Shown: in pieces, positions 34,938 through 58,676 of the stretch
Layout: every line of letters begins with the position of its first letter
Numbering within the stretch: position 1 is the stretch's first letter
Assembly (NCBI GenBank): GCA_016927935.1
Contig: JAFGLS010000201.1
Coordinates: 16,255 to 80,254, forward strand
DNA from: Syntrophaceae bacterium
GTDB taxonomy: Bacteria; Desulfobacterota; Syntrophia; Syntrophales; Smithellaceae
Length of the DNA stretch: 64,000 nucleotides
Direction of reading: 5' to 3'
Program-made: the position numbers and the translations under genes
The notes under the pieces: model-generated
What the model was told of the DNA's origin: nothing
Seen by the model: the letters and a program-made list of their open reading frames with translations, nothing else
The model's database searches: none

Positions 34938-35354
34938 TTAAAAACCGAATGCTTTGCGGATTTCTTCCGGAATGCTAAAGAGCATTTCTCCTTCCGGAAC
35001 CTTTACCGCCACTTGCTCCGTGCGGCCCCGAGCGCAGATTTCCCCATCCGCCGCTCTGCGTACTTCAAAATCAACAATCAATTTAACGTATGCGTCGACG
35101 AGAGTCGCCTTGCAGATGATTTCATCACGATGGCGCAAAGGAAGAATATGCTTGGTTGAAGTCTTGATAATGGGAAAAATTAACTGCTGCTTTTCAAAGA
35201 AGGAGTACAAATCAATGCCGTTATTTTCAAAAAGTGCCGCCCGTGCCACTTCAAAATAGTTCAGGTAATTGGCGTGCCAGACAATCTGCATCGGGTCAAG
35301 GTCAAAAAAAGGAATTCTTATTTTTACTTCAAAACTTTTTTGCTTTTCTTTCAT
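34938..35354 (-). CDS. Hot-dog acyl-(ACP/CoA) thioesterase (4HBT-like)
   Basis: IRIPFFDLDPMQIVWHANYLNYFEVARAALFE. Confidence 0.88.
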   Translation of the reverse strand: MKEKQKSFEVKIRIPFFDLDPMQIVWHANYLNYFEVARAALFENNGIDLYSFFEKQQLIFPIIKTSTKHILPLRHRDEIICKATLVDAYVKLIVDFEVRRAADGEICARGRTEQVAVKVPEGEMLFSIPEEIRKAFGF

Positions 35355-36904: not shown

Positions 36905-36907
36905 TAG

Positions 36908-38161
36908 TTAAAATTTCCTTTCCTGTTTTAACGGTTGACGCACGCGTGGTTTATATGTGCCGTCCGCTTTTTCCTTGTCCATAACTTTTTTCAACAACTT
37001 AAACATTTTATAGTTCGACGGTTCTTCCTCGTAAAATTTATCCCATGCGTAATAATAAAGCGACTGCAATTCTTCCGGTGTCAGCATCTTTGGCTGAAAA
37101 ACAACTTTTCCACTAGTATAATCGTTCCAGTCATAAGAAAAAATTCTTTCCGCATTATGCAAATCGTCATATGTTTTGGTATGAGGGAAAGGAGTTAACA
37201 CAGTGAACTCCGCCATGTCCAGTTCAATTTCGAACAGAAAATCCACCATCCTTTTAATATAATCTTCAGAATGATAATCGAGCCCCAGTAAAATGCTGCC
37301 CTCCACGGCAATGCCGTAATCGTGATAGCGCTTGATGCGGTTGCGTATAAAATCGGAAGTATCGAAAACAGTCTGATAAACAAACCAGGCACCAGCCTGA
37401 GCGGCCAGATCCAGCACGGTATCGTCATTTTCTATGGGATGACAGCACCACTTTTTTTTCAGTGGAATCATTTCTTTGAATAATTGAATTTCCCAGTTCT
37501 TGTCCTGCGCCAGCGAATTATCCACGAGGAAAAGTCTGTTATTATCAATACTGGTCATCTCTTCAACAACTTTGTCCAAAGGACGGGGACGGAAATTTCT
37601 TCCTCCCAGAAAATTAACACAGCAGGGATAACAATTGAACCGGCAGCCGCGCGATGCGTGTACAAGGTCAACCATCTGCACGCCGCGATAATTGTATTTT
37701 TCGCGGTCTAAAATATCACGCCTTGCTGTACCGGCGCTTTCAATGGACGGGAAATCCTGCATATAGTTATAAACTTTCTGTAGTCTGCCGTTTTTGAAAT
37801 CAGAAAACACCTGTTCCATCCGGCCTTCGGCTTCTCCCAGAAAAACGCAATCGGCGTGATTTTGCGTTTCTTCAGCGTGCAGCATTGTGGCAATGCCGCC
37901 GAAGATCACTTTAATTTTTTTCTTCCGGAATTTATCGGCTACTTCCCAGGCGCGTTTTATCTGAGCGCTCAGCATAACCGAAATGCCGACAAAATCAGCG
38001 GGCTGGTCGAAATCAATCTCCTGAATATTTTCATCTATAAAATCTACCTCAACATAATCGGGCAGAGCTGCGGCAAAAACCACCGGCCCGTGCGGCGGCA
38101 GAATAAACGGTGTTTGCCGGTCCAGTTTTTCCCATTTCGGATAAATCAATTTAAACTTCAT
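36908..38161 (-). CDS. B12-binding-domain radical SAM protein
   Basis: N-term cobalamin-binding-like domain, HASRGCRFNCYPCCVN (CxxxCxxC). Confidence 0.85.
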   Translation of the reverse strand: MKFKLIYPKWEKLDRQTPFILPPHGPVVFAAALPDYVEVDFIDENIQEIDFDQPADFVGISVMLSAQIKRAWEVADKFRKKKIKVIFGGIATMLHAEETQNHADCVFLGEAEGRMEQVFSDFKNGRLQKVYNYMQDFPSIESAGTARRDILDREKYNYRGVQMVDLVHASRGCRFNCYPCCVNFLGGRNFRPRPLDKVVEEMTSIDNNRLFLVDNSLAQDKNWEIQLFKEMIPLKKKWCCHPIENDDTVLDLAAQAGAWFVYQTVFDTSDFIRNRIKRYHDYGIAVEGSILLGLDYHSEDYIKRMVDFLFEIELDMAEFTVLTPFPHTKTYDDLHNAERIFSYDWNDYTSGKVVFQPKMLTPEELQSLYYYAWDKFYEEEPSNYKMFKLLKKVMDKEKADGTYKPRVRQPLKQERKF

Positions 38162-38443
38162 GTCTTATCTTTTAATAAATTAATTTTAATTCCAATACAT
38201 TAGCACTATTTACCTGGTTATCCCCCCCCTCTGCTAGCTCTGCGAGAGGCCCTCACGTTGAAAAACCAAAAACAACCTAGCTGTGTTTACAATATTTTAT
38301 GATTTCCGCCAATAAAAAATTGTTAAACTTTAACCTAATATGTGGTATAAGGCAGAACCAAATAATCCTTAAAAATTTAGCAGAAACTCAAAAAAGAAGA
38401 GGCACTATAAATTTTAAAAAATAAAATTTGAGGGAGGTAAAAT

Positions 38444-39358
38444 ATGGTACAGGTAGATGTTTTCTGGTCTTATGGCCTCGGCGCCAGTTTTGCCGCCGCC
38501 GCAACCAGGCAGTTAAAGATGATGGGTTCCCAAAATCAGGATCCCGGCAAGGTGAGTCCGTTTATCAGTAAATTTTTTATTATATCAATACTTTTCTCGG
38601 CATGTATATTCGCTCCCTCCGGACTTTATTTGTTATGGAATTTCCCCCAGTGGGAAACCATGCAGGTCGCCACATGCCATGAAGACCTTCCGGCGTGGCT
38701 GGTGACTATTTTTGCCATAACCAATGTCACACAGGGCATTTTGGGATACTGGGTGACAAACAAATTAATTCAGCTCGGTAAAATTCATGCAGCAGGCTTG
38801 CAGTTTATCATCGGCCATTTCTGCATGTTTTTTATTCTTCTCTATGGCTGGGATGGAACGGGCTGGCAGAGATTCCTTTATGATGCCAGTATGACCGGCG
38901 TTTTATGGCAGCACCAACCGCAAACATTCACGGTTTTTACCTTCCTTTTCAGCAATGAATTCTGGACCATTGTGAAGAATTTCTGTACCAGCAATGTATT
39001 CTGGACTCTTATCGGGATGGGCGTGATAATGATTCCCGTGTGGCTTTATTTCATTGTCGCGTGGATAAAGGAAGGCGCAGAGAAAGACCCGTCGTTCCCG
39101 AAGGAAAAACTTCCCCAAGGTTTAATGACATACGTTAAAGTACTAGGAGCCTGCTTTTTCGCGGTATTCGGCATAGCTCTTGTCTCAGCGGGTATCGCTG
39201 CCCTTATGGTACACTTCATCGGGTGGATTACTAATACGTTCTGGCTGGGTTATGTGATCGGACTTCCTCTGTTTATCGTTATCGGCTATTTTGTGATTTA
39301 CAAAAAGTGCGGTCATCTGCTCGCAAAATCGATTCTGCTGGATGATCCGCAAAAATAA
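38444..39358 (+). CDS. Hypothetical multi-TM membrane protein
   Basis: 304 aa, several hydrophobic helices; preceded by GAGGGAGGT RBS. Confidence 0.7.
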   Translation: MVQVDVFWSYGLGASFAAAATRQLKMMGSQNQDPGKVSPFISKFFIISILFSACIFAPSGLYLLWNFPQWETMQVATCHEDLPAWLVTIFAITNVTQGILGYWVTNKLIQLGKIHAAGLQFIIGHFCMFFILLYGWDGTGWQRFLYDASMTGVLWQHQPQTFTVFTFLFSNEFWTIVKNFCTSNVFWTLIGMGVIMIPVWLYFIVAWIKEGAEKDPSFPKEKLPQGLMTYVKVLGACFFAVFGIALVSAGIAALMVHFIGWITNTFWLGYVIGLPLFIVIGYFVIYKKCGHLLAKSILLDDPQK

Positions 39359-39378
39359 GTTTTTCGTTTAGTTTTTTC

Positions 39379-39418
39379 AGGCGGCGATAAGAGTATTCCA
39401 TGTTTCTTACCGCCGCCT
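39379..39418 (+). terminator. Long hairpin between the membrane protein and OYE genes
   Basis: AGGCGGCGATAAGA...TTCTTACCGCCGCCT near-perfect 14-bp stem. Confidence 0.45.
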
Positions 39419-39427
39419 ATTAATTAA

Positions 39428-40639
39428 GTGCCTATGACTCAGATATTTGAAACTTCTAATATAGGTAGTATAACACTTAAAAACCGCATCATACGGTCGG
39501 CAACCGCTGACGGCCTGGCAGACGCGGACGGAAGACCGACAGGGGAGTTGATAGAGTTTTATAAAAGTCTCGCCCGCGGCGGTGCCGGCGCGATAATCAC
39601 CGGCTTTACCGGTATTCAGAAAAACGGGAAGGGAAGCACACATCACCCGCTGATGCTGGACAGGGATGAGTATATTGACGACTATAAAAAACTAACCGCG
39701 GCAGTGCATGAATACAATACGCCGATTATTATTCAGTTGAATCACGCCGGGCGACAGACAAGAAAGAGGATAACCGGCCTGCCGACAGTCGCTCCGTCAG
39801 CCAGAAGAGACCTGTACTTTTTGGAAAAAAGGCCGAAAAAACTGACGGATTCGGCAATAGAAGAAATCATAACCAATTTCGCAAAGGCGATAGAAAGGGC
39901 AAAGAAAGCCGGCTTTGACGGCGTGCAGCTCCACTGCGCCCACGGCTTCTTGCTGTCGGAATTCCTGTCGTCCAATATGAATAAAAGAAAAGACCAGGGG
40001 GGTGGAACGACAAAAAATAAGTTCCGCATCATAGAACGGATATTCACTGAAGCGAGAAAACGCGTCGGCGATTTTCCTATACTGGCAAAAATAAACGCTT
40101 ATGACACCCGAAAAATGGGGATGCGAACACCCGAGGCAGTGGAAATCGCGAAATACCTGCAGGACGCCGGTTGCGCTGCCATTGAAGTATCCTGCGGCGT
40201 CGCGAATGACGGATTCATTACGGTGCGGAGCAAAAAGTTTCCCACCGCGGCAGCCCTTGAATACAGTTACCTGCTGCGATATCTTCCCTTCGTAATTAAA
40301 AAATTTATCCAGCCGTTTATTCCCATATTCGTGCCAATTTTCACGAAGCCTCAGAAGCAACTCGACAACTTTAACGTTCCGGCCGCAGAAGAAATAAAAA
40401 AGAATGTTTCCATACCGGTAATCGTTGTCGGGGGAATAAAGAGGCTAGATGACATTGAAAGAATAATTTTTGAAAACAAGGCCGATTACGTTTCCATGAG
40501 CCGCGCTTTTATATGCGAGCCGGACATTGTCAACAAATTTAGAGAAAAAAAACAGACAGAATCAAAGTGTGTCTCCTGCAACTTCTGCATAACCTGTATC
40601 GAAAGCATGCCCTTCAAATGTTTTAATGACACTCGCTGA
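39428..40639 (+). CDS. NADH:flavin oxidoreductase (Old Yellow Enzyme family), single domain with C-terminal Cys cluster
   Basis: FETSNIGSITLKNRIIRSAT, IIIQLNHAGRQT, GVQLHCAHGFLLSEFLSSNMNKR, CVSCNFCITC. Confidence 0.9.
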   Translation: MPMTQIFETSNIGSITLKNRIIRSATADGLADADGRPTGELIEFYKSLARGGAGAIITGFTGIQKNGKGSTHHPLMLDRDEYIDDYKKLTAAVHEYNTPIIIQLNHAGRQTRKRITGLPTVAPSARRDLYFLEKRPKKLTDSAIEEIITNFAKAIERAKKAGFDGVQLHCAHGFLLSEFLSSNMNKRKDQGGGTTKNKFRIIERIFTEARKRVGDFPILAKINAYDTRKMGMRTPEAVEIAKYLQDAGCAAIEVSCGVANDGFITVRSKKFPTAAALEYSYLLRYLPFVIKKFIQPFIPIFVPIFTKPQKQLDNFNVPAAEEIKKNVSIPVIVVGGIKRLDDIERIIFENKADYVSMSRAFICEPDIVNKFREKKQTESKCVSCNFCITCIESMPFKCFNDTR

Positions 40640-40862
40640 GAGCAAGTCCCGATGTATCGGGACGATGCTCGAAGCGGAAGTGGAATTATCCCCGAAGCGT
40701 AGTGGAGTGGGATTTGACACTCGCTGATAATGAGACCCGACGAATTTGAGACGCAGGTCGAATTACCCCTGAACGGAGTGAATGGGGGTAGGTACCTTTT
40801 GAAATGCGATGCTAGATGCGTGAGTGGAACTATCCCAGGAGTGCAGCATAGTGAGATGGCAG
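40636..40862. repeat. Tandem cluster of diverged family B units
   Basis: GGAATTATCCCCGAAGCGTAGTGGAGTGGG; GAGACCCGACGAATTTGAGACGCAGGTCGAATTACCCCTGAACGGAGTGAATGGGGG; GTGGAACTATCCCAGGAGTGCAGCATAGTGAGATGG. Confidence 0.55.
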
Positions 40863-40958
40863 CATATAAAGAAGAACTATCATCGGATTTAAGCTTCCCA
40901 CCTGGTAATGTCAGATAATAAAAAAATTCTTTCATTTGGAAAAAAACAGAGGAAAAAG

Positions 40959-41630
40959 TCACCGTAAATTCAGTAGTGTGGGAAAAATTTCACTGCGTCG
41001 GCGTACACCGATTATCTTACGGATTTCTTTCATGTGGTCTTTTACCGTGTATTCACTTATGTTCAGTTTCCCTGCTATTTCCCTGTCGGAATGTCCTGTT
41101 GATGACAAGACAGCTATTTCCCGCTGTCGGGGAGATAAGCGGTATTGTTGCATTCTTCCATTAACAAACTCAGGATTCGGCAGCGTCATTTTTAAAAATT
41201 TATCATTTTTAAATTTTTTCATTTTTATTTTTCTACTGGAAATATCAGTAGCATAAGACATGAAGAAAGAATCTTTTCCTATTTTAATAGGTAATACACT
41301 AATCAACATATGTAGAACCTCTTGCTTACCGACCTTGAGTTCTAAGGGAATGTCTTTGGCAAATCCTTGTTTTTTTATTGCATCTATTAACCAATATCTT
41401 TGCGTTTGTGAAAAATGTCCGAGTTCCGACGCTTTATGCCCGATTATCTTTGTGCGCGGCAATCCCATATATTTTTGGGCAGCTTCATTTACCTCCACAT
41501 AGGTGCCGTCCTCAACCCTAGTGATAGACACGGGAATTGGCAGTGCCATGAATAATTTATAGAGAAAGTCTTTTGTGGAATTTTTTAGTTTCTGCTTGCG
41601 AGTTTTCATAACCGAAACCGATATTGGCAA
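40959..41630 (-). CDS. PAS-domain LuxR-family transcriptional regulator
   Basis: PAS (VEDGTYVEVNEAAQKYMGLPRTKIIGHKASELG), LuxR HTH (LSPRQREIAVLSSTGHSDREIAGKLNISEYTVKDHMKEI). Confidence 0.88.
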   Translation of the reverse strand: MPISVSVMKTRKQKLKNSTKDFLYKLFMALPIPVSITRVEDGTYVEVNEAAQKYMGLPRTKIIGHKASELGHFSQTQRYWLIDAIKKQGFAKDIPLELKVGKQEVLHMLISVLPIKIGKDSFFMSYATDISSRKIKMKKFKNDKFLKMTLPNPEFVNGRMQQYRLSPRQREIAVLSSTGHSDREIAGKLNISEYTVKDHMKEIRKIIGVRRRSEIFPTLLNLR

Positions 41631-41861
41631 AAATTATATTGAAAATTTCCAATAATTCAACCCCCTCTTTATAGGGATTTAATGATTGACTGTCTTTTGT
41701 ATATGTGCAATAACTTAACCGCAAATAACGCTGTCAGCAACTCAGTCAAATCAAAACATAGAGTCGTCAATGGTTTAACATATGGAAAAGAAGCCAACAT
41801 ATTATATCTCAGCATCTAAAAATGAAGGCGCATGAGAGGCCGTCGTAAAAGGGGTTGTTTT

Positions 41862-42242
41862 ATGAGTTCGGAAGTTTCTATTAATTTCCAGGGCGAATAT
41901 ATTCACATTACGCATCAACCGGACTTTAAACTCACGCTGGAAAACCTGAAAAAATTTTGGACAGAATTATCCAAGGCATGTAAAAAACACAAATGCCTGA
42001 AAGCCTTTCATGAAGGCCCTGCCCCTAAAAGAGAGATGAGTTTAACGGACGCGTTCCAATCAGGGCAAAAAGTAGCGACATGTATACCAGGGTTGAAGAT
42101 GGCGATATGCTTTTACGGCTATGTTACTGATGAAACGACTACTTTGTTCATTAATACTGCCTATAATCGGGGCGTTCAAGTCGAATTTTTTCAAGATAAA
42201 AGAGAAGCCCTCGAATGGCTCGGCATAAAAGACACCGACTAA
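41862..42242 (+). CDS. Hypothetical SpoIIAA/STAS-like protein
   Basis: MSSEVSINFQGEYIHITHQPD..., C-term FFQDKREALEWLGI; start trimmed from 41832. Confidence 0.5.
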   Translation: MSSEVSINFQGEYIHITHQPDFKLTLENLKKFWTELSKACKKHKCLKAFHEGPAPKREMSLTDAFQSGQKVATCIPGLKMAICFYGYVTDETTTLFINTAYNRGVQVEFFQDKREALEWLGIKDTD

Positions 42243-42337
42243 ATCCACTGCTCCGATGTTCTATAAATAATCAAAAACTTTTGGTATTAGTTAAAGATTG
42301 CCCCATTGATGATCACGAACAATCATTCTCAACGCAG

Positions 42338-43588
42338 TTATTTGCTAAATATCAGGTAAGCGTATGTGCCGCCGAATGAAATGCCGGCAAGAACCGCTTT
42401 TTTAATCTCCAGTACTTTTTTTTCTCCTATAATAAACGGAAGCGGTTGCGCGGGTTTTGTAAGTCCAACCACTGGCGGCAAAACATTTTTCTCCATAGAC
42501 AGAGCCAGAGCACAGGCCCTGATGCCACCACCGGAAAAGCTCTCTCCTGTTGCTCCTTTCAGCGATGTAATTAGCGGCTTTGTCTCCGCCAAAGCAAATA
42601 TTTCGGCGTAAGTCTGAGCTTCTACGGCATCAAGAATTTTATCGCCGTTGGCCGCCGCAAAAATAGCCTGAATCTCATTTATTGCGCTATCCGTGTTTTT
42701 CAGCGCGCGTCCAAAAGTCAGTTTTATGCCGTCTGTGTTTTGCGGCCATTCGTTCGGTTTGATTGGTGACGAGCCCATGCCCGCCCCTTGAATTTCACAA
42801 TAGGGCTTGCGTCCTCTGTCTATCGCCGATTGCAAACTCTCCAGACAAATAATTCCGCAGCCCTCTCCCGCTATCATTCCGTTCCGTTCTTCATCAAAGG
42901 GACGGCACGCTTCCTTCCCGCGGTTTTGAGGAGAAAGACTGTGAAATTTTGTCAGCGACTCATAGAAAAATTTGGATAGGATATCCACGCCACCGGCGAA
43001 AATAAAATCGGCAGTGCCGCGCCTGATTTCCGCCATGGCATAGGCAATAGCGTTTTCGGCGGAAACAGCGAAATGCGTTATAGTTGTGTTGATGCCGCGA
43101 AATCCCAACTCAATGGAAGTATGACTGGCGGCGGCATTCATAACTGTATTGGGCACTAATAGCGGATTAACTGAAGCGGGTCCCTGAGTAAACAGTGTTG
43201 TCAGAAACTGGACGGTTATATCCGTCGCGCCAAAAGCGGTGCCCAGGATAATGCCGACACGGTCGCGGTTTTCTTCTGTGATTTTGATTCCCGCGTCTTC
43301 CAAAGCCAGACGCGCGGACGCCGCGGCCATCAGGGATATTTTATCCATCCTTCGCATGTTTTTCACGGAAATAAAATCACGCGGGTTGAAATTGGTAACT
43401 TCCGCGCCCAGATGAGATGAAAATGTGCTTGTGTCAAATGATTTAATTTCTGCAATGGCTGTTTCGCCGGAAAAAAGACGCTCGCCAAATTCTTCTTTGC
43501 CGATTCCCAGAGGAGTCACCGTGCCGATACCGGTTACAACCACATGCTGGGTGTTTTCCATTTGCTTATTTCTATTCATGGTCAACAC
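42338..43588 (-). CDS. Ketosynthase-like chain-length factor (KS-beta), catalytic residues lost
   Basis: Full-length KS fold, but TITHFAVSAENAI replaces TACxSGxNAI, FAAANGD replaces NAHGT, SLKGATGES replaces KxxxGH. Confidence 0.85.
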   Translation of the reverse strand: MLTMNRNKQMENTQHVVVTGIGTVTPLGIGKEEFGERLFSGETAIAEIKSFDTSTFSSHLGAEVTNFNPRDFISVKNMRRMDKISLMAAASARLALEDAGIKITEENRDRVGIILGTAFGATDITVQFLTTLFTQGPASVNPLLVPNTVMNAAASHTSIELGFRGINTTITHFAVSAENAIAYAMAEIRRGTADFIFAGGVDILSKFFYESLTKFHSLSPQNRGKEACRPFDEERNGMIAGEGCGIICLESLQSAIDRGRKPYCEIQGAGMGSSPIKPNEWPQNTDGIKLTFGRALKNTDSAINEIQAIFAAANGDKILDAVEAQTYAEIFALAETKPLITSLKGATGESFSGGGIRACALALSMEKNVLPPVVGLTKPAQPLPFIIGEKKVLEIKKAVLAGISFGGTYAYLIFSK

Positions 43589-44816
43589 CCCTTGCGGAAT
43601 ATCTGCCGAAAATTAACGTGGTGTTGTTTCCCCCAAAGGCGAAGGAGTTGGAAAGAACGGCCCGTAAATTGGCTTTTCTGAAACCGGAAGTGACATAATC
43701 CAAATCACATAGCGGATCACTGTCCTGATAATTGATTGTCGGAGGGATAAAGTTGTTATGCAAGGCCAGCACGGAAACAATGCCTTCGAGTGCGCCTGCA
43801 GCTCCCAATGTGTGAGCATGCATGGACTTGGTAGAACTTACCGGAATAGAATAAGCGCGTCTGCCGAATACCTCCTTGATGGCTTTGGTTTCCATCGCAT
43901 CGTTGACCGGTGTGGCCGTACCGTGGGCATTGATATAATCAATGTCATCAACAGAAAGGCCACTGTCCTTCAATGCCGCTTGCATGGAGCGTATAGCTCC
44001 GGAAGCCTGTTCATCGGGAGCGGTCATGTGGAAAGAATCGCAGGTAATGCCGTAACCCAAAACCTCGCCGTAAATTTGCGCTCCTCTGTCAATGGCGGAT
44101 TCAAGCTCTTCGAGAACCATTACTGCCGAGGCTTCGCCCAGCGAAAGTCCGGCGCGGTTTTTGTCAAATGGCCGGCAGGTGGCGGTATCAACCGACTTCA
44201 GCGCGTTAAAGGCGGCATAGGTCAGTTGACACATGGGCTCCACGCCCCCCGCCAAAATGATAGAGGCGTGGCCGCTCATAATTAAGTCACGGGCATAACC
44301 GATGGCGGTTGCACCTCCGGAGCAGGCTGTCATAAAGGTTGTCTTTGGCCCCGTAAAACCGAAAGAGGAGGCAATACGGTCAACGGAAGAAGCACAAAAC
44401 AAAGAGGAAAATGTGGAAAACTTTGCTTTCCTGCCATCATTTTTCAAGAAATCAGCGTAGAACTTTTCCGCTTCTAAAAGACCACCAGCGCCGCCACCGA
44501 CGACTACGCCGATTTGTTCTTTCAGTTCTTCCGGCGACGGACAAATCCCGGCATCCCGCAGGGCTTCCAACGTTGCGGCAAAAAAAAGCTTGTCCGCCCG
44601 CGACATCCTTTTAATAGAAAAATCTCCGGGGATGTAATCATGAGCAATAAAATTTCTTATCTGACCGCCTGTGTCAGAGCGGAATCCTGATGTATCAAAA
44701 AGATCAATCTCCCGTATGCCGCAGACGCCTTCCTTTAGAGCCCGCATAAAATCCGGGACTTTATTGGAAATAGCATTTAAAGTCCCCATTCCGGTAATAA
44801 CAACACGTTTTTTCAA
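43572..44816 (-). CDS. Beta-ketoacyl-ACP synthase (KS-alpha)
   Basis: FMTACSGGATAIG, NAHGTATPVND, SSTKSMHAHTLGAAGALEG; overlaps the CLF gene by 17 bp. Confidence 0.92.
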   Translation of the reverse strand: MKKRVVITGMGTLNAISNKVPDFMRALKEGVCGIREIDLFDTSGFRSDTGGQIRNFIAHDYIPGDFSIKRMSRADKLFFAATLEALRDAGICPSPEELKEQIGVVVGGGAGGLLEAEKFYADFLKNDGRKAKFSTFSSLFCASSVDRIASSFGFTGPKTTFMTACSGGATAIGYARDLIMSGHASIILAGGVEPMCQLTYAAFNALKSVDTATCRPFDKNRAGLSLGEASAVMVLEELESAIDRGAQIYGEVLGYGITCDSFHMTAPDEQASGAIRSMQAALKDSGLSVDDIDYINAHGTATPVNDAMETKAIKEVFGRRAYSIPVSSTKSMHAHTLGAAGALEGIVSVLALHNNFIPPTINYQDSDPLCDLDYVTSGFRKANLRAVLSNSFAFGGNNTTLIFGRYSARGVDHE

Positions 44817-48357: not shown

Positions 48358-48485
48358 TCGTTGTAGTTTTAAGTAACCAAACTATTCAATTTTCATTATA
48401 TTTTGATTTTGACACCGAAATTACTATGGTATTTTTCGGCATCAGGTAGTTATTTTTTAAAATATTGATAATAAACGGAAATCTG

Positions 48486-49727
48486 ATGAATAATAATCAT
48501 AATATAAGAGTTGTTATAACCGGTGCGGGACTAACCGCTCCTAATGCCAATAATATTAAGGACTTTCGTGACGCATTACTGACCCAGAAATCCGGGATAA
48601 CGGAAATGGAAGTTCGTTATATGGGCACAGTTGCAGCGGGTAACTGTAACTTTGATGAATATCTCTACCAAAAGAAAAAAATGCGCAGACGAGGAACAAG
48701 GGCAGGATCAATTTCAATTTATTGCGCTAATGAAGCATTAAAAGACAGCGGATTATCCTTAGATTCATTGATAAAAGACAGAACCGGAATATTTCTTGGA
48801 ATTACCGAGCACGGTAATGTGGAAACAGAAAATGAAATTTATGAACTCCATAAAAACAACCTTGATGCCAGCTTATGGTCTCATCATCATAATCCAAGAA
48901 CTGTGGCCAACACACCCGCCGGGGAAGTCAGTCTGAATATGGGGATCACAGGCCCAGCCTACACCATAGGCGCCGCCTGTGCCGCCGGAAATATTGGAAT
49001 CATTCATGGTATGCAAATGCTGCAGCTTAATGAAGTGGATCTGGCTTTGGCCGGGGGCATTTCCGAAAGCACAGGCACTTTTGGAATTTTTGCCGGATTT
49101 AAAAGCCAGGGGGCTCTGGGTTTTCATGAAGATCCAACTAAAGCAAGCCGACCGTTGGATGTAGATCGCAACGGTATTGTTGTTTCCGAGGGAGGAGCCA
49201 TTTTTGTTCTGGAAAGAATGGAGGACGCTCTAAAACGTAAGGCAAAAATTTACGGTGAAATAGCCGGTTATCATGTCAATTCCGATGCCGTTGATTTTGT
49301 CCTTCCCGATACGCAAAGGCAGATTGAGTGCATGAAGGCTGCATTATCCAAGGCAAAAATTACGGCCAATGATATTGATATAGTTAATCTTCATGCCACC
49401 GGAACAGTTTCCGGGGATGTTAATGAATGTGACGCGGTCAACGTTGTTTTTGGACAATCCGAAAACACATATATCAACTGTACAAAGGGATTTATCGGCC
49501 ATGCAATGGGTGCCGCGGGAGCATTGGAACTTGCGGGTAATTTGTCCAGTTTTACAGATAATAAAATTCATTCCTGCAAATATATCGAAAATGTTGATCC
49601 AAAGTGTCAAATGAAAAATTTGGTAAATGGTGAACCGGTTAATAAGGAAATTAATTATATTTTAAGTAATTCATTTGGAATGCTGGGTATTAACTCAGTT
49701 TTAATAGTAAAAAAATACAGGGAGTAA
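48486..49727 (+). CDS. Beta-ketoacyl-ACP synthase (FabF/KS-like)
   Basis: IGAACAAGNIGI, NLHATGTVSGD, TKGFIGHAMGAAGALE; start trimmed from 48465. Confidence 0.9.
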   Translation: MNNNHNIRVVITGAGLTAPNANNIKDFRDALLTQKSGITEMEVRYMGTVAAGNCNFDEYLYQKKKMRRRGTRAGSISIYCANEALKDSGLSLDSLIKDRTGIFLGITEHGNVETENEIYELHKNNLDASLWSHHHNPRTVANTPAGEVSLNMGITGPAYTIGAACAAGNIGIIHGMQMLQLNEVDLALAGGISESTGTFGIFAGFKSQGALGFHEDPTKASRPLDVDRNGIVVSEGGAIFVLERMEDALKRKAKIYGEIAGYHVNSDAVDFVLPDTQRQIECMKAALSKAKITANDIDIVNLHATGTVSGDVNECDAVNVVFGQSENTYINCTKGFIGHAMGAAGALELAGNLSSFTDNKIHSCKYIENVDPKCQMKNLVNGEPVNKEINYILSNSFGMLGINSVLIVKKYRE

Positions 49728-49750
49728 AATCCTTACTAGGAGGTAGTGTT

Positions 49751-50005
49751 ATGGATTATCAAACAATAAGAAAAAAAATTGTTGATATAATCGCGGAGAT
49801 CGCGATTGACGAGGACCTTTCTAATCTTGATGACAATATAAGATTAAGAGAACAGCTTGATCTGGATTCTATGGATTTTCTGGATGTGGTTATGGAGCTG
49901 AAGAAGAGATATAAAATTGAGGTTCCTACGGAGGATTACATTAAACTGGCAACAATTAAAAGTTGTATTGAATATCTCGGCCCCAAGCTTGCTGTAAGTA
50001 CATAA
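49751..50005 (+). CDS. Acyl carrier protein
   Basis: LDLDSMDFLDVVMELKKRYKIEVP. Confidence 0.92.
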   Translation: MDYQTIRKKIVDIIAEIAIDEDLSNLDDNIRLREQLDLDSMDFLDVVMELKKRYKIEVPTEDYIKLATIKSCIEYLGPKLAVST

Positions 50006-51390
50006 TGAAGGATTATGATACTGTAATAATAGGTGCGGGCATGTCCGGTCTGGCCGCCGGCATCAGACTGGCAATGTTCGATCAAAAGGTGTGTATTCTG
50101 GAAAAACACAAAGTGCCGGGAGGACTTAATTCCTACTATGAACGCCAGGGCAGGAAGCTGGATGTCGGGCTTCACGCCATGACTAATTTTGCCCGTCAGG
50201 GTGAACGAGGCCGTCCGCTGACGAAACTGCTCAAACAATTAAGAATACCTCACGAAAAACTCGGGTTGTCGCAACAACATTTTTCACGAATCAAATTTCC
50301 TGAACATGACATTTCTTTTTCCAATGATCCGCAATTACTTATCAAAGAATTAGAAAAAGTTTTCCCCCTCCAGAAAGATAATTTCGCAAAGCTCCTGGAA
50401 CTTGTCAAAAATTTTGATAATGTCAATCTAAACAACAAGCCTCAAAGTGCCAAAGAAAAAGTCAGAGAAATTATTACCGACGAACGATTGCTGGAGATGC
50501 TTTTCTGTCCATTGCTGATTTACGGGAGCGCCTGGGAAAATGACATGGATTTTTCCCAGTTTGTCACCATGTTTAAAAGCATTTATCTGGAAGGTTTCAG
50601 CCGTCCCCAAAATGGAGTGCGGTCCATAATAAATCTTCTGCTGGAAAAATACACACAACTGGGCGGAGAACTGCATTTAGGAACGGGCATCAAAAAAATA
50701 GATGTGGAGAATGGCGCTGTCAGGGGAGTGACGCTTGACTCAGGAGAAAAAATTATAGCCGATAAAGTTATGTCTTCTATCGGTCTTCCGGAAACGATGA
50801 ATATTATTTCTGAAAACAGTAAATCACTCATCATTGGCAATATGAGTTTTACTGAAACAATTTTATTTTTTGATAAAAAGCCCGGTGATGTTGGTATCAA
50901 AGAGACAATAATATTCTATAATGAAAACGAGAAATACGAATACAGGCGGCCGGAAACTCTCTGCGATTATCGCAGCGCCGTAATTTGTTTTCCCAACAAT
51001 TTTGCTCATGATGATTACGATGAAGGATTGATTCGTGTTACTTTCATTGCCAATTTCGATAAATGGGATGAGTTGGACAGAAAAACTTACCTTCAAAAGA
51101 AAAAAGATGTGTGTAATAAAGCACTCGCGTTAATTGCAAGGATGTTTCCTAAGTTTCAGGCCAATCTGCTTTATCATGATGTTTTTACGCCTAAAACCAT
51201 TACGCGCTATACCGGCCATTTTAAAGGAGCAGTTTATGGAACTACCCAGAAAGCCAGGGACGGACGGACCGGTATTAAGAATTTATTTATCTGCGGCACT
51301 GATCAGGGTTTCTTGGGTATAGTCGGGGCAATGCTCAGCGGAATTTCCATGGCTAATCTTCATTGTCTGATGAACGGAGAAAAAGCATGA
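50005..51390 (+). CDS. CrtI/retinol-saturase-like FAD-dependent oxidoreductase
   Basis: DTVIIGAGMSGLAAGIRLAMFDQKVCILEKHKVPGGLNSYY, C-term FICGTDQGFLGIVGAMLSGISMA. Confidence 0.88.
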   Translation: MKDYDTVIIGAGMSGLAAGIRLAMFDQKVCILEKHKVPGGLNSYYERQGRKLDVGLHAMTNFARQGERGRPLTKLLKQLRIPHEKLGLSQQHFSRIKFPEHDISFSNDPQLLIKELEKVFPLQKDNFAKLLELVKNFDNVNLNNKPQSAKEKVREIITDERLLEMLFCPLLIYGSAWENDMDFSQFVTMFKSIYLEGFSRPQNGVRSIINLLLEKYTQLGGELHLGTGIKKIDVENGAVRGVTLDSGEKIIADKVMSSIGLPETMNIISENSKSLIIGNMSFTETILFFDKKPGDVGIKETIIFYNENEKYEYRRPETLCDYRSAVICFPNNFAHDDYDEGLIRVTFIANFDKWDELDRKTYLQKKKDVCNKALALIARMFPKFQANLLYHDVFTPKTITRYTGHFKGAVYGTTQKARDGRTGIKNLFICGTDQGFLGIVGAMLSGISMANLHCLMNGEKA

Positions 51391-52418
51391 GATTTAAAAA
51401 CGTCGTCATTTCTTCTTTTGCCTATCACCTCCCTGAACAAGTAATGACTTCGGATGAAATTGAAGAAAGACTTGCTCCTTTATACCAGCGACTTAAACTT
51501 CCCTCTGGCCGAATAGAATTAATGACCGGCATCAAAGAAAGGCGTTTCTGGCCGCCGGGAACAATGCCCAGTGATTTATCCACTCAGGCAGCAAGAAACC
51601 TCTTTGAAAAAAACGTTGTCAAACCTCAACAGATAGATTTATTAATCCACGCATCTGTCTGCCGTGATTTTCTGGAACCCTCAACTTCTTCAATTGTTCA
51701 TCACAACCTGAAACTGCGCACGGAATTAATGTTTTTTGACCTTTCCAACGCCTGCCTGGGAGTAGTAAGTTCCTTCGTTGTTGCCGCCAATATGATAGAA
51801 AATGGATTAATTAAACACGCTCTGATTGTTTCCGGCGAAAACGGAGGGCCTCTGCTCTTTCAAACCATCGAGCATTTATTACAGGATAAAAACATAACAA
51901 GAAAAAGCATTAAAAAATATATTGCCAATTTAACCATTGGTTCTGCTGCCGTCGCTTATTCCGTTTCCCACAAAAATTATGTCCACGAAGGACACTTACT
52001 TCTCGGAGGAGCTTCTCTTGTAGATTCATCCGCTAATATTTTTTGTCGTGGCAACGGAGACACAGTGTCGCTGATGATGGAAACCGAGTCCGAAGAACTG
52101 ATGATATCCGGTGTTGCTCTGGCTGAAAAAACATGGGAAGAAACAAAACGGGAGCTGGGATGGACCAATAATGATATGGATTGCTTTGTCGGCCATCAGG
52201 TTGGCGTGGCGCACGAGATTCTTTTAAAGCAAACATTAAAACTGGAAAATTGTCCTACCTTTACCACTTATCAATATTTAGGCAATACCGGGGCATCTGC
52301 TCTACCCTTAACACTTTGTATCTATGATGAACAGAAAAAAATTACCAAGGGTAATAAAGTAGGCTTGCTGGGCATCGGATCAGGTCTTAATTCTATAATG
52401 CTGGGGGTAAGGTGGTAA
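51387..52418 (+). CDS. oleA: OleA-like thiolase-superfamily enzyme (ketoacyl-ACP synthase III family)
   Basis: HASVCRDFLEPSTSSIVHHNL, FDLSNACLGVVSSF (Cys), GHQVGVAHE (His), YLGNTGASALPL (Asn); ATGA overlap with upstream gene. Confidence 0.85.
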   Translation: MRFKNVVISSFAYHLPEQVMTSDEIEERLAPLYQRLKLPSGRIELMTGIKERRFWPPGTMPSDLSTQAARNLFEKNVVKPQQIDLLIHASVCRDFLEPSTSSIVHHNLKLRTELMFFDLSNACLGVVSSFVVAANMIENGLIKHALIVSGENGGPLLFQTIEHLLQDKNITRKSIKKYIANLTIGSAAVAYSVSHKNYVHEGHLLLGGASLVDSSANIFCRGNGDTVSLMMETESEELMISGVALAEKTWEETKRELGWTNNDMDCFVGHQVGVAHEILLKQTLKLENCPTFTTYQYLGNTGASALPLTLCIYDEQKKITKGNKVGLLGIGSGLNSIMLGVRW

Positions 52419-53272
52419 GGCCGGACTGGTTGAATAAATTATATCCATACAAATCAAACTTCCTCAAACTGAAAGACAATCTTTCCCTGCATTATATTGA
52501 TGAAGGACAGGGCGAGCCTTTGCTTATGCTGCATGGCAATCCCACTTGGTCTTTTTATTACAGAAATCTTGTTGCGGAATTTTCCAAATTCCACAGAGTG
52601 GTTGTCCCGGATCACATCGGCTGTGGTCTTTCGGATAAACCGCAGAATTATGACTACACATTAAAACAGCATATTGATAATCTGGAAAAACTGGTAACGG
52701 AATTAAAACTGAGAGATTTTGTGCTGGTTGTTCATGACTGGGGCGGTGCATTTGGTTTCGGACTTCTTCAGCGTTATCCTGACTTGGTCAAAAAAATTGT
52801 CATTTTGAATACTGCCGCTTATATTTCTGAGTTTATTGCTTTTCGGATAAATATGTGCCGGATTCCAATTCTGGCTGAACAGGTGATTCGCCGTTTGAAC
52901 GGCTTTGCGCTGACTGCCACTTACATGGCCGTGGCAAAGAAAATGCCACCTGAAATCAGAAAGGGTTATCTTTATCCTTATGATAACTACAAAAATCGTA
53001 TTGCCATAGCGCGGTTTGTCGCTGACATCCCCATGAACCCTAATCATCGTAGTTATCAGACATTAAAAAACATTGAATTATCACTTTCTCAACATAAATG
53101 CCCGACGCTTATTCTCTGGGGCAAGAAGGATTTTTGCTTTAATGATTATTTTCTTAAACGCTGGATGGAAATTTATCCTCACGCCATGGTAAAAACATTC
53201 GAATCTGCCGGTCACTATGTACTCGAAGATGCCAAAGAAGAAATAATTAAAGAATTGAAACAGTTCTTATAA
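52412..53272 (+). CDS. oleB: OleB-like alpha/beta hydrolase (haloalkane dehalogenase family; beta-lactone decarboxylase)
   Basis: MLHGNPTWSFYYRNL, VVHDWGGAFGFGLL, LWGKKDFCFNDYF, AGHYVLEDA; located between oleA and oleC. Confidence 0.85.
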   Translation: MVRPDWLNKLYPYKSNFLKLKDNLSLHYIDEGQGEPLLMLHGNPTWSFYYRNLVAEFSKFHRVVVPDHIGCGLSDKPQNYDYTLKQHIDNLEKLVTELKLRDFVLVVHDWGGAFGFGLLQRYPDLVKKIVILNTAAYISEFIAFRINMCRIPILAEQVIRRLNGFALTATYMAVAKKMPPEIRKGYLYPYDNYKNRIAIARFVADIPMNPNHRSYQTLKNIELSLSQHKCPTLILWGKKDFCFNDYFLKRWMEIYPHAMVKTFESAGHYVLEDAKEEIIKELKQFL

Positions 53273-53318
53273 TATAAGTCCTATAGTTAAAATTAATCAT
53301 TACAAGAAGATATCCGCT

Positions 53319-54944
53319 ATGAATATTGCCGATCGTTTTACTGAAATAGCAAAAATTTATCACAACAAAGTTGCGGTCAAATATCCATACCGAGCAGGTA
53401 AAGAATATCATTACTACTCCATAACTTTTGGAGAGTTGGAATCCTTGTCCAATAAATATGCCAATGGTCTTTCCAAAATCGGATTTTATCGTGGGATTAA
53501 AACTCTTCTTTTTGTCCGGCCATCATTGCAATTTCCGGCTCTGGTTTTTGCTCTCCTTAAGCTGGGAGTTGTCCCCGTATTGATCGACCCCGGCATGGGC
53601 AGAAAAAATCTTCTGACTGCAATTGAAGAAGTCGCTCCTGAAGGGCTGATTGCCGAGCCGGAAGTTCATTTTTTAAGTCTGCTCTTTGCTAAATCCTTTA
53701 AATCCGTAAAATTCAAAGTAACAACCAGAGGACTAAAAATTGGAAATTGTTTCCCTCTTGCCTCTTTAGAAAATTCTCCAGCCAGTTTTGAAAGTGTTCA
53801 GATGGAACCTGATGAAATGGCTGCAATCTTATTTACTTCCGGTGGAACAGGCCGCCCCAAGGGAGTTGTCTACACTCACAAAATTTACACTGAACAAACA
53901 CGTCTGCTCCAGGAACTTTTTTCTTTAAGTGAACAGGAAATTGACTTGCCCTGTTTCCCGTTATTTTCTCTTTTTACACTCTGCATGGGAATGACCTCCT
54001 GCGTTCCGGATATGGATCCTTCCCGGCCCGCAAAAGCTGACCCAAAAAAACTATTACAGAATATTAGGGACAACAGAGTTACTTTCATGGCCGGTTCTCC
54101 GGCAATCTGGCAGGTGCTGGGCGAATATTGTGAAAAAAATAAAATTACTCTTCCTACAGTAAAATATTTGGTAATGTTCGGCGCGCCGGTGAGAAATGAA
54201 CTCCATAAAAAATTCAGTAAAATTTTACCCAATGGTACGACATATACACCATACGGAGCTACGGAGAGTCTCCCTGTTTCCAATATTTCAGGGAAAATCA
54301 TTCTGGAACAGACAGCCGAATTGACCTCGCAGGGTAAAGGAACCTGCGTCGGCACACCGGTTCTTGGCGTTGAAGTTTCCATCATTGAAATAAGCGATGA
54401 AACCATTGACGATATAAAGAAGGCCAGATTATTAAAGCCATATGAAATCGGTGAAATTATTGTAAAGGGTGATATTGTTACCACAAGTTATTATCAATCG
54501 CCTGCGGAAACAGCCCTCGCAAAAATAACAGATGACAAATCTTTCTGGCATCGGATGGGTGATCTCGGATATAAGGATGAACAGGGAAGACTATGGTTTT
54601 GCGGTCGCAAAACTCATCGTGTTGAAACTTCTTCGGGATTGTTATTTTCGGTAATGTGTGAAGCTTTTTTCAATACCCATTATGGTGTCCGGCAATCAGC
54701 TTTGGTGGGTTTAGGAGAAAAGGGAAGGCAGTCCGCTGCCATAGTTATTGAAAGAAATGAAGCTGGGAAAAAACTGAACAAGAATTTTTTCGCCAAAGAA
54801 CTTTTGGAAATGGCGAAAAACAACGCCTTGACAACAAAAATAAAATCGGTTCATTTCTGCGATAAAATGCCTGTTGATGTCCGGCACAATATCAAGATTG
54901 ACCGATTAAAACTGGCCAAGGAAGTTTCGCGGGGGAAAATATGA
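53319..54944 (+). CDS. oleC: OleC-like AMP-dependent synthetase (beta-lactone synthetase)
   Basis: AAILFTSGGTGRPKGVVYTHKIYTEQTRLLQELF, YTPYGATESLPVS, HRMGDLGYKDEQGRLWFCGRKTHRV. Confidence 0.87.
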   Translation: MNIADRFTEIAKIYHNKVAVKYPYRAGKEYHYYSITFGELESLSNKYANGLSKIGFYRGIKTLLFVRPSLQFPALVFALLKLGVVPVLIDPGMGRKNLLTAIEEVAPEGLIAEPEVHFLSLLFAKSFKSVKFKVTTRGLKIGNCFPLASLENSPASFESVQMEPDEMAAILFTSGGTGRPKGVVYTHKIYTEQTRLLQELFSLSEQEIDLPCFPLFSLFTLCMGMTSCVPDMDPSRPAKADPKKLLQNIRDNRVTFMAGSPAIWQVLGEYCEKNKITLPTVKYLVMFGAPVRNELHKKFSKILPNGTTYTPYGATESLPVSNISGKIILEQTAELTSQGKGTCVGTPVLGVEVSIIEISDETIDDIKKARLLKPYEIGEIIVKGDIVTTSYYQSPAETALAKITDDKSFWHRMGDLGYKDEQGRLWFCGRKTHRVETSSGLLFSVMCEAFFNTHYGVRQSALVGLGEKGRQSAAIVIERNEAGKKLNKNFFAKELLEMAKNNALTTKIKSVHFCDKMPVDVRHNIKIDRLKLAKEVSRGKI

Positions 54945-55288
54945 ACATATTAATTACCGGTGCCGGTGGTTTTCTGGGAAGAAATTTATCGGCAAGTCTT
55001 GTATCCAAGGGATACAAGGTCTGGGCTTTCATCAACCAGATTCTTTCACGCTATAATTTACCGCCAACAACAAAAAAAGTACCGGAGAGGGTTGCTTTTA
55101 ATATTGGATTATTTCTGGAATCTTGGTATAAGCTCTTCCATATTAAAGGGAAACCGCCGATGACGCGTTTTGTGGCACTGCAATTTTCACGTTCCCATTA
55201 CTTCTCCCATCAAAAAGCAAAAAACGATTTTGGTTATGAGCCGAAAATATCAATAGAACAGGCGCTTGATCTGACGGTGAGGGAATAA
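54941..55288 (+). pseudogene. oleD: Internally deleted OleD-like NAD(P)-dependent dehydrogenase (N- and C-terminal ends fused in frame)
   Basis: MNILITGAGGFLGRNLSASLVSKGYKV (Rossmann start) joined directly to INQILSRYNLPPTTKKVPERVAF...PPMTRFVALQFSRSHYFSHQKAKNDFGYEPKISIEQAL (OleD-like C-term); only 115 aa. Confidence 0.75.
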
Positions 55289-56707
55289 ATGCTTTTAAAT
55301 AAGAATGATAAAATTACACAAAAATATGATGTGGTTATCATTGGCGGAGGATTGGGAGGATTAACTGCCGCCAACAAGCTCGCCAAAAATGGCAGAAAGA
55401 TTCTACTGCTGGAATCACATGACAAACCGGGAGGATTTGCTACCTGGTTCTACCGCAAGAAACATATTTTTGATGTGTCACTGCACGGATTCCCGGTGGG
55501 CATGGTAAAAACCTGCCGTAAATACTGGAGCAAAGAAATCGCCGATAAAATAATTCAACTAAAAAGAATGCGTTTTATAAATCCCCTGTACCAGATGGAG
55601 ACAGATTATACTGTGGAAGACTTCACCAGCAAGCTCGTCAACTATTTTAAAGTCTCCCAAGAGCAGGTTGACAAATTCTTCGAGTTGGTTATGAATATGA
55701 ATTATTATGACAATAAGGAAATGACCAATGGTGAACTGCTGGAAAGTTTTTTCCCGGGAAGAAAAGACGTCCATCGTTTTCTAATTGAGCCTATTGTTTA
55801 CGCCAATGGCTCCACGCTGGAAGATCCGGCAATTACCTACGGAATCGTTTTTTCCAATTTTATGAGCAAAGGCGTCTATACATTCCAGGGCGGAACCGAT
55901 CTTATTATAAAAATGATGCAGGAAGAACTTTTGAAAAACGACGTTGATATTCGTCTGAAATCAAAAGTGGATAAGATTGTTGTGGAAAATAATATTTGTC
56001 AAGGTGTGACAGTTGGCGGCAATTTCATTGCTTCCAAATCGGTTCTTTCCAACGGCAATCTCATTGGCACTATTTTTAATCTTGTAGGAGAGGATAAATT
56101 TAAACCGGAATTTATTGAAAAGGTTAAAAAGGTCAGACTCAACACCAGTTCTTGTCAGGTTTACATGGGAATCAAGGAGGGGGAAAAAATAGAGGATATC
56201 GGCGATCTGATATTCTACTCGGAAGCAAAAGAATTTAAAACCGATGAGCTTCTTTCCATGAATACGACCAGCCGGACGTTTTCCCTCTACTATCCACGAT
56301 TAAGACCTCATTTAGCCAATGCCGGATATACAATAGTCGCATCCACCAACGCGCGTTATGAAAACTGGGTAAACCTAAGCAGGGAGGAATATAAGGCAAG
56401 GAAACAGGAACTCATTGAGGCAACACTGGTGAGTCTGGAAAAAATTATTCCCGGAATCAGAAAAAAGATTGATTATACTGAGGCGGCAACGCCTTTGACT
56501 ATCAAGAGGTACACTCATCACGAAAAAGGTTCCTCTTTTGGAACCAAGCATGAAGGTCTGGATATTTCCATGAAACTACAGAATGAAATAAGCGGCTTGT
56601 TTCATACCGGTTCCGTCGGCATTATTATGTCCGGATGGCTCGGCGCCGCTAATTACGGTGTGATTCAATCTTATGAGGTAGAAAGCTATTTAGATAAAAC
56701 AAATTGA
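55289..56707 (+). CDS. CrtI/retinol-saturase-like FAD-dependent oxidoreductase (second copy)
   Basis: YDVVIIGGGLGGLTAANKLAKNGRKILLLESHDKPGGFATWF; FGTKHEGLDISMKLQNEISGLFHTGSVGIIMSGWLGAANYGV. Confidence 0.88.
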   Translation: MLLNKNDKITQKYDVVIIGGGLGGLTAANKLAKNGRKILLLESHDKPGGFATWFYRKKHIFDVSLHGFPVGMVKTCRKYWSKEIADKIIQLKRMRFINPLYQMETDYTVEDFTSKLVNYFKVSQEQVDKFFELVMNMNYYDNKEMTNGELLESFFPGRKDVHRFLIEPIVYANGSTLEDPAITYGIVFSNFMSKGVYTFQGGTDLIIKMMQEELLKNDVDIRLKSKVDKIVVENNICQGVTVGGNFIASKSVLSNGNLIGTIFNLVGEDKFKPEFIEKVKKVRLNTSSCQVYMGIKEGEKIEDIGDLIFYSEAKEFKTDELLSMNTTSRTFSLYYPRLRPHLANAGYTIVASTNARYENWVNLSREEYKARKQELIEATLVSLEKIIPGIRKKIDYTEAATPLTIKRYTHHEKGSSFGTKHEGLDISMKLQNEISGLFHTGSVGIIMSGWLGAANYGVIQSYEVESYLDKTN

Positions 56708-56715
56708 GGTGTCCT

Positions 56716-57456
56716 ATGTTTGATTTCAGCAATCAGAGAGTTATTGTCACCGGCGGAACCCGCGGCATTGGAGCGGGAATTGCCCAGGCTTTCCTTCAGG
56801 CCGGAGCAACAGTTATCGCCATATATTCATCCAATGATGCTGCCGCCGGTGAATTTAAGAAAAAAAACGAACAATACGCGGCAAGTCTCGATATTCAAAA
56901 ATACGATGTCTCCTCTTCACAGGAAGTTAAAAATTTTTTCAGATATCTTGATGAAAAATACCCTTCACTGGAGGTACTGGTGAACAATTCAGGAATCAGA
57001 AAGGACGCGGTCGCGGCTTTAATGCAGGATGAAGAATGGGCAAAAGTTCTGGACGTTAATCTTACCGGAACTTTCTACATGTCCCGGGAAATCATCCCCC
57101 GCTTTATGTCCGGCCGTTTCGGCAGGATTATCAATATCAGTTCTTTGGGGGGAGATATCGGATTTCAGGGACAGGCAAACTACGCGGCATCCAAAGCCGG
57201 CCAACTGGCGCTGACCAAATCCTTGTCCAAAGAAATCGCCAAAAAAGGCATTACAGTAAACTGTGTTTCTCCTGGATTTATTGATACCGAATTAATCAGC
57301 GATCTTCCCGAAGAACAGAAAAAAGAATATCTCAAAATGATTCCACTAAAACGTTTCGGCAAGGTGGAAGAAGTGGCTCACGCTGTCTTGTTTTTGGCCA
57401 GCCGTGAGGCTTCCTATATTACGGGAACAACTATTACTGTTGCTGGAGGTCTGTGA
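56716..57456 (+). CDS. fabG: 3-oxoacyl-ACP reductase (FabG-type SDR)
   Basis: VTGGTRGIGAGIAQAFLQAGA, NNSGIRKD, QANYAASKAGQLALTKSL, GFIDTEL; start trimmed from 56704. Confidence 0.92.
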   Translation: MFDFSNQRVIVTGGTRGIGAGIAQAFLQAGATVIAIYSSNDAAAGEFKKKNEQYAASLDIQKYDVSSSQEVKNFFRYLDEKYPSLEVLVNNSGIRKDAVAALMQDEEWAKVLDVNLTGTFYMSREIIPRFMSGRFGRIINISSLGGDIGFQGQANYAASKAGQLALTKSLSKEIAKKGITVNCVSPGFIDTELISDLPEEQKKEYLKMIPLKRFGKVEEVAHAVLFLASREASYITGTTITVAGGL

Positions 57457-57875
57457 TGGAAGATATTCTTGCCGCCATTCCTCAACGTCCACCTTTTCTT
57501 TTTGTCGATAAAATTATAAAAAGAAAAGGCAATTCCATAACAACGCAAAGGACGTTAAGAGAAGACGAATATTATTTTCAGGGCCATTTCCCCGGCAATC
57601 CCATCATGCCAGGAGTGTTGTTATGCGAAGCCTGTTTTCAGACAGGAGCCATATTGATAACGGCAGATAACAACCAGCCGGGATTGGGTGTTATAACACG
57701 GATAAAAGATGCCAAATTTAAACACTTTGCCAGGCCCGGCGATACCCTGACCATTACAGTAACGCTTGATGAAAAATTGGGGAATGCTTATTATATGAGT
57801 GGAACAATTTCCGTCGGTGAAAAAATAATTTTGAAAATCTTATTTCATGGGGCGCTGCTCCCAAAAGAAAAATAA
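57453..57875 (+). CDS. fabZ: 3-hydroxyacyl-ACP dehydratase (FabZ-like)
   Basis: PQRPPFLFVDKI, GHFPGNPIMPGVLLCEACFQTGAIL. Confidence 0.92.
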   Translation: MMEDILAAIPQRPPFLFVDKIIKRKGNSITTQRTLREDEYYFQGHFPGNPIMPGVLLCEACFQTGAILITADNNQPGLGVITRIKDAKFKHFARPGDTLTITVTLDEKLGNAYYMSGTISVGEKIILKILFHGALLPKEK

Positions 57876-57884
57876 AAGGTTGAT

Positions 57885-58676
57885 ATGGACTTTCTACAAG
57901 TTGCAGGAAAAACATTTTTAGTGACCGGTGTCGCCAACAAAAAAAGCGTTGCCTTCTTCGTCGCCAAAGGCCTGATTGATAACGGCGCGAAGGTAATTCT
58001 TTCCGTTCAAAATGAAGAAAGTCAAAGCAAAGCTCAAAAACTTTTTCCTGAAAGCACCATATTAATCTGCGATGCGGAGAATGCTGAAAGCATCAATCAA
58101 TTGGGAATTTATTTTCAAAAAAACAGCATCAAACTTTCCGGTTTTGTCCATTCCATAGCCTTTGCCAACTACAGCGAAGGGATTAAACCTTTTCACGAAA
58201 CAAAAGTGCAGGATTATCTTCAGGCAACCAACATCTCCTGCTTTTCGCTGGTGGCCATCGCCAACGCCTTGAAAAATTCTTTTGAGGAAAACGCTTCCAT
58301 TGTCACCATATCCATCAGCAACACCCGCGCTACCGCTTACGGTTACATGGGACCGATTAAGGCGGCACTCGACGCCACTGTGGCTTTTCTGGCAAAATCG
58401 TTATCCGAAATATCCAAAGTCAGGGTAAATGAAGTTTGCGCTGGACCTCTGAAAACCTCTGCATCAGCGGGCATTCCCGGATACGTTAATAATTATCTTT
58501 TCGCCGAACAGTTGACTTTGCGCAAGGCTGCGCTTAAAACCGAAGAAGTTGCCAATACTGTTATCTTTTTGCTTTCACCCGTTTCCAGCGGAATTAATGC
58601 TACCGGCATTGTAGTGGACGCCGGAATGTCTTGTAATTATTTCGATCAGGATGTAGTTAATAAGACAATGCGTTAA
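57885..58676 (+). CDS. fabI: Enoyl-ACP reductase (FabI-like SDR)
   Basis: FLVTGVANKKSVAFFVAKGL; YGYMGPIK = Y-x6-K motif of FabI. Confidence 0.85.
   Translation: MDFLQVAGKTFLVTGVANKKSVAFFVAKGLIDNGAKVILSVQNEESQSKAQKLFPESTILICDAENAESINQLGIYFQKNSIKLSGFVHSIAFANYSEGIKPFHETKVQDYLQATNISCFSLVAIANALKNSFEENASIVTISISNTRATAYGYMGPIKAALDATVAFLAKSLSEISKVRVNEVCAGPLKTSASAGIPGYVNNYLFAEQLTLRKAALKTEEVANTVIFLLSPVSSGINATGIVVDAGMSCNYFDQDVVNKTMR

Follow-up and report, generated by a model that had tools for sequence, protein, structure and literature searches.

The closest described counterparts of the locus considered here are the oleABCD genes of the head-to-head hydrocarbon pathway in Shewanella and Xanthomonas. 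OleD of this pathway is an NADPH-dependent 2-alkyl-3-oxoalkanoate reductase (NF042422 / NF042423). It reduces the beta-keto acid produced by OleA, and OleA in the absence of OleBCD yields ketone by spontaneous decarboxylation (PMC6463001, PMC7064751). The stretch of DNA that we analyzed, 64,000 nucleotides of the genome of an uncultured Smithella (the window), resembles the Shewanella and Xanthomonas systems in that OleA, OleB, and OleC are present and intact. It differs from them in the addition of a beta-ketoacyl-ACP synthase (KS), an acyl carrier protein (ACP), FabG, FabZ, FabI, and two CrtI-like oxidoreductases, and in a broken OleD that is found in the window genome only.

These genes form a cluster, conserved in Smithella, that spans window positions 48465-58676 and lies entirely on the forward strand, with OleABC(D) accompanied by chain-building enzymes and oxidoreductases of its own. 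A FabF-like KS (48465-49727), an ACP assigned from its sequence (49751-50005), and CrtI/CrtISO-like FAD oxidoreductase 1 (50005-51390) precede an OleA-like ketosynthase III (51363-52418), an OleB-like alpha/beta hydrolase (52412-53272), and an OleC-like beta-lactone synthetase (53319-54944). The truncated oleD (54941-55288) comes next and is followed by CrtI/CrtISO-like FAD oxidoreductase 2 (55289-56707), a FabG-like ketoreductase (56704-57456), a FabZ-like dehydratase (57453-57875), and a FabI-like enoyl reductase (57885-58676). Every one of these genes apart from oleD is full length, and OleA, OleB, and OleC are free of lesions. The start of OleA is probably ATG 51387 rather than TTG 51363 because the corresponding gene of a relative, G007, has an in-frame stop between the two positions. 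The set formed by KS, ACP, FabG, FabZ, and FabI looks like a dedicated chain-elongation system, and the cluster as a whole suggests that head-to-head condensation is fed by an acyl chain made for the purpose, possibly a polyunsaturated one. A literature search did not find a description of this cluster, and a scan for promoters and terminators returned nothing above chance.

The truncated oleD encodes a product of 115 residues in which OleD residues 1-27 are joined in frame to residues 238-325. It shares with OleD the N-terminal 27 and C-terminal 88 residues, and its gene sits in the same place, after oleC and before the following gene of the cluster, but it is without 210 central residues, among them the catalytic YxxxK and the greater part of the nucleotide-binding sheet. 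When the gene is aligned codon by codon with full-length orthologues, W28 of the product falls on W238 of the G003 orthologue, and 630 nt, or 210 codons, that every one of the 11 sister orthologues possesses are missing. The catalytic motif, Y137-A-E-T-K141 in G003 numbering, falls within the missing residues 28-237. Residues 3-36 of the product are recognized as an extended-SDR Rossmann start (Pfam PF16363/PF01370), with TGAGGFLG at residues 6-13 fitting the glycine-rich motif TGxxGFLG, and the OleD model NF042422 aligns over its positions 242-322 with residues 30-110 (E 5.5e-27). The product scores 95 bits against the NF042422 cutoff of 580 bits, a cutoff that is uninformative here, as the intact G003 orthologue scores 384 bits and 0 of 398 phylum genomes reach 580. 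These alignments bear out the first-pass annotation, which had described the open reading frame as an in-frame internal deletion of OleD beside an intact OleABC, with the Rossmann start and an OleD-like C terminus kept and a middle of roughly 200 residues, catalytic Tyr/Lys included, missing. Its description of overlaps with both neighbors holds for oleC, which is overlapped by 4 nt (ATGA), but not for the downstream CrtI-like gene, whose ATG (55289) is directly abutted by the oleD TAA.

The consequences for the fold can be gauged from a model of the full-length G003 protein (mean pLDDT 70), in which strands occupy residues 2-6, 26-31, 44-47, 65-70, 104-109, 157-163, 187-190, 195-198, and 225-229 and helices run from residue 238 onward. 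Mapped onto this model, the deletion cuts strand 26-31 and removes every later strand, with the product picking up again at helix 238. What is kept is the first strand and helix of the Rossmann fold followed by the C-terminal helices; the sheet is incomplete at 115 residues, compared with about 325-330 for an OleD with a complete nucleotide-binding sheet. The model of the 115-residue product itself is poor (mean pLDDT 67, with residues 1-23 below 50), showing helices only from residue 27, and nothing other than these C-terminal helices reaches fair confidence. The N-terminal disorder in this model is not strong evidence because the N terminus was misplaced in the input alignment. Because the YxxxK pair and the greater part of the Rossmann sheet are lost, it is very unlikely that the product is a working OleD reductase; this predicted loss of activity follows from the absence of the catalytic residues and of the fold.

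Comparison with relatives places both ends of the missing 630 nt at a short imperfect direct repeat, about TCTGG(A/G)ATTTCA. In the relatives, the left breakpoint resembles TCTGGAATTTCAGCC (W-N-F-S) and the right breakpoint resembles CTCTGGGATTTCATCAAC (W-D-F-I); the longest unbroken run of bases that the two have in common is about 5-6. The window retains one copy, about TCTGGGCTTTCAT, at the deletion junction (55019-55031, forward strand), and the junction reads TCTGGGCTTTCATCAAC. Just ahead of it sits a perfect 9-bp inverted repeat, CTTGTATCC AAG GGATACAAG (54998-55018, not assigned to a strand), that may have played a role in slippage. Such an arrangement is typical of slipped mispairing or of deletion without RecA, and RecA-independent deletions between short direct repeats are documented in Escherichia coli (PMC5426353). 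The window gene is like bacterial pseudogenes that arose by deletion between short direct repeats in having an imperfect repeat at both ends, a single remaining copy, and intact sister orthologues, but it keeps its frame and has no further decay yet, and its junction is known from the assembly alone. The retention of the frame had been singled out as notable. It is accounted for by the codon register that the two repeat copies share, which makes the loss of one copy together with the intervening DNA necessarily an in-frame event.

Named matches to the window OleC are from Smithella and Deltaproteobacteria metagenome-assembled genomes and are 79-82% identical, and on this basis we take the genome for a Smithella (Syntrophales). 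An orthologous oleD is present in 11 of 16 other Smithella genomes and is full length in all 11, with products of about 325 residues and open frames of 326-346 codons; the gene order is the same as in the window wherever contigs are long enough. Four genomes of the same genus (G002, G004, G009, and G014) gave no close match to the window OleC or OleD. Strong OleD matches number about 48 among 398 sampled genomes of the phylum, and all of them are full length. Among the genomes searched, the short OleD is private to the window genome, and the same mini-OleD, which had been thought worth seeking at syntenic loci, was not found in relatives.

The retained codons carry information on the age of the deletion. 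Across 113 of them, the pN/pS of the remnant against seven relatives is 0.12-0.28, compared with 0.10-0.25 for pairs of intact genes; the rest-of-cluster figures in this comparison include a misaligned G007 OleA. The tip branch of the remnant, in a tree that left out G007, is longer than that of the concatenated cluster by a factor of 1.51; for intact genes this factor ranges from 0.80 to 1.54, and the intact gene of G016 is similar to the remnant. Private changes at otherwise invariant sites number 5 of 68 in the remnant (L21V, D239A, I253T, F275L, and E281K) versus 37 of 1543 in the rest of the cluster's proteins, a weak difference (Fisher p = 0.03) that G016 comes close to matching. The remnant has no stop or frameshift. 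If change after the deletion is taken, in a simple model, to be neutral, the deletion is estimated to account for about 5-7% of the branch, with an upper bound of about 17-25%. Because there is so little extra substitution, the deletion is recent, or an artefact, or the remnant is constrained. The figures fit a deletion that is young relative to the species split, and a recent deletion, one of the options offered by the first-pass annotation, gains support from the 11 intact sisters together with the sparse substitutions.

We consider it probable that the window carries a recent loss-of-function allele of oleD. A smaller but real chance, which we judge unlikely, is that the organism has a full-length oleD and that amplification or assembly joined its two ends, as chimeric reads might do. 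We worked from a draft genome of 239 contigs with 5% contamination, the gene is intact in every relative that has it, and a remnant almost as constrained as an intact gene and free of stops and frameshifts also fits an artefact; G001, another draft of the genus, likewise shows short-overlap junctions. Simple collapse by an assembler is disfavored, however, because the bases shared at the breakpoints are too few, far below the word lengths that assemblers commonly use. Nor does the missing segment occur elsewhere in the assembly, either in an intact copy or as a free piece. Furthermore, when 120 proteins or open frames of relatives were placed on the same 80-kb contig, oleD was the only conserved gene with an internal deletion. 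Of the 120, 105 are intact, and the non-intact cases other than OleD are short stretches, start-site differences, shared domains, and open frames on the wrong strand, a reading made by inspection.

A functional mini-OleD would be a different matter. The remnant could have been kept as a stable, non-catalytic small protein, such as a docking piece holding OleB and OleC, with reduction left to a second OleD or FabG and an altered product or a mixture of ketone and alkene as the result. The open frame, the low pN/pS, and the tight coupling to neighboring genes are compatible with such a role, as are the second full-length OleD in the genome and the OleBCD complex described in work cited by PMC6463001. 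We nevertheless think it very improbable: the short form is seen in one genome only, frame retention follows from the register of the repeats, the product is poorly modeled, and D239, I253, and E281, invariant in the seven compared relatives, are changed in the remnant. That the FabG at 56704 has replaced OleD, as the first-pass annotation had entertained, can be given hardly any weight. It is an intact ketoreductase of the same operon with its own YxxxK, but sister genomes that keep full-length OleD have FabG in the same place (87-89% identical), and thus it is not a newly recruited replacement. Its presence is explained by the dedicated chain-elongation set that it completes with KS, ACP, FabZ, and FabI. 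FabG as a recruited substitute was ruled out on these grounds.

If oleD is indeed a recent loss-of-function allele, the lineage leading to this Smithella genome would have lost the 630 nt between the two imperfect repeats, with slipped mispairing or RecA-independent recombination as the probable route, and the junction seen in the assembly should be present in cells. The frame and the tight coupling of OleC, OleD, and CrtI would have survived the deletion through the shared codon register of the repeats, and the downstream genes should still be translated. The 115-residue product, without the catalytic Tyr/Lys, should not reduce a ketone. With OleD missing, ketone is therefore to be expected from the cluster unless another reductase steps in: the beta-keto acid from the cluster OleA would either give a long-chain ketone by decarboxylation or be reduced in trans.

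A candidate for reduction in trans is encoded in the same genome. Contig C236 carries a second complete ole locus (L059:6947-12637) with two adjacent OleA-like ketosynthase III genes, an OleB-OleC fusion of 860 residues, and a full-length OleD of 331 residues that is 47% identical to sister OleD. Similar second loci are found in G013 (L072) and G044 (L071). Contamination as the source of C236 was set aside on the strength of a YedE-like gene 90% identical to that of a Smithella relative, despite a HypB-like gene that is only 59-67% identical, and the contig is, judging from these identities, probably native. A complete oleD elsewhere in the genome that pairs with the window OleABC, which the first-pass annotation had named as counting against its reading, is half borne out: the gene exists, but it adjoins its own OleB-OleC fusion and OleA-like pair. 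Its product could act for the broken cluster.

Another genome of the genus shows more extensive damage. In G001 (L073:9196-12439), the same cluster is degraded by several deletions, at least two of them internal, with loss of the KS N terminus, of most of the ACP and the start of CrtI1, and of the OleA C terminus and OleB. OleC ends after 76 recognizable residues and gives way to unrelated DNA, and two of the junctions overlap by 6-9 nt. This decay favors the view that the window deletion is an early step of loss, with the caution due to draft assemblies applying to both genomes. An ole cluster that is absent or decaying in some Smithella species suggests that its lipid product is dispensable.

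Taken alone, the broken gene is one gene in one draft genome and carries little weight; more useful are the observations that Smithella species have in common a conserved ole cluster equipped with chain-building and CrtI-like enzymes of its own, and that some species lack this cluster or are losing it. The truncated gene is most likely not a new kind of enzyme or system. Should the deletion be confirmed, it would provide a naturally occurring oleD-null allele alongside an intact oleABC, for which ketone in place of alkene is predicted. Farther upstream in the window (35351-44816) lie an aromatic/histidine ammonia-lyase-like gene, a radical-SAM-like gene, and a pair of FabF-like ketosynthase genes, which could, from their sequences, belong to an aryl-polyene-like or flexirubin-like pathway.
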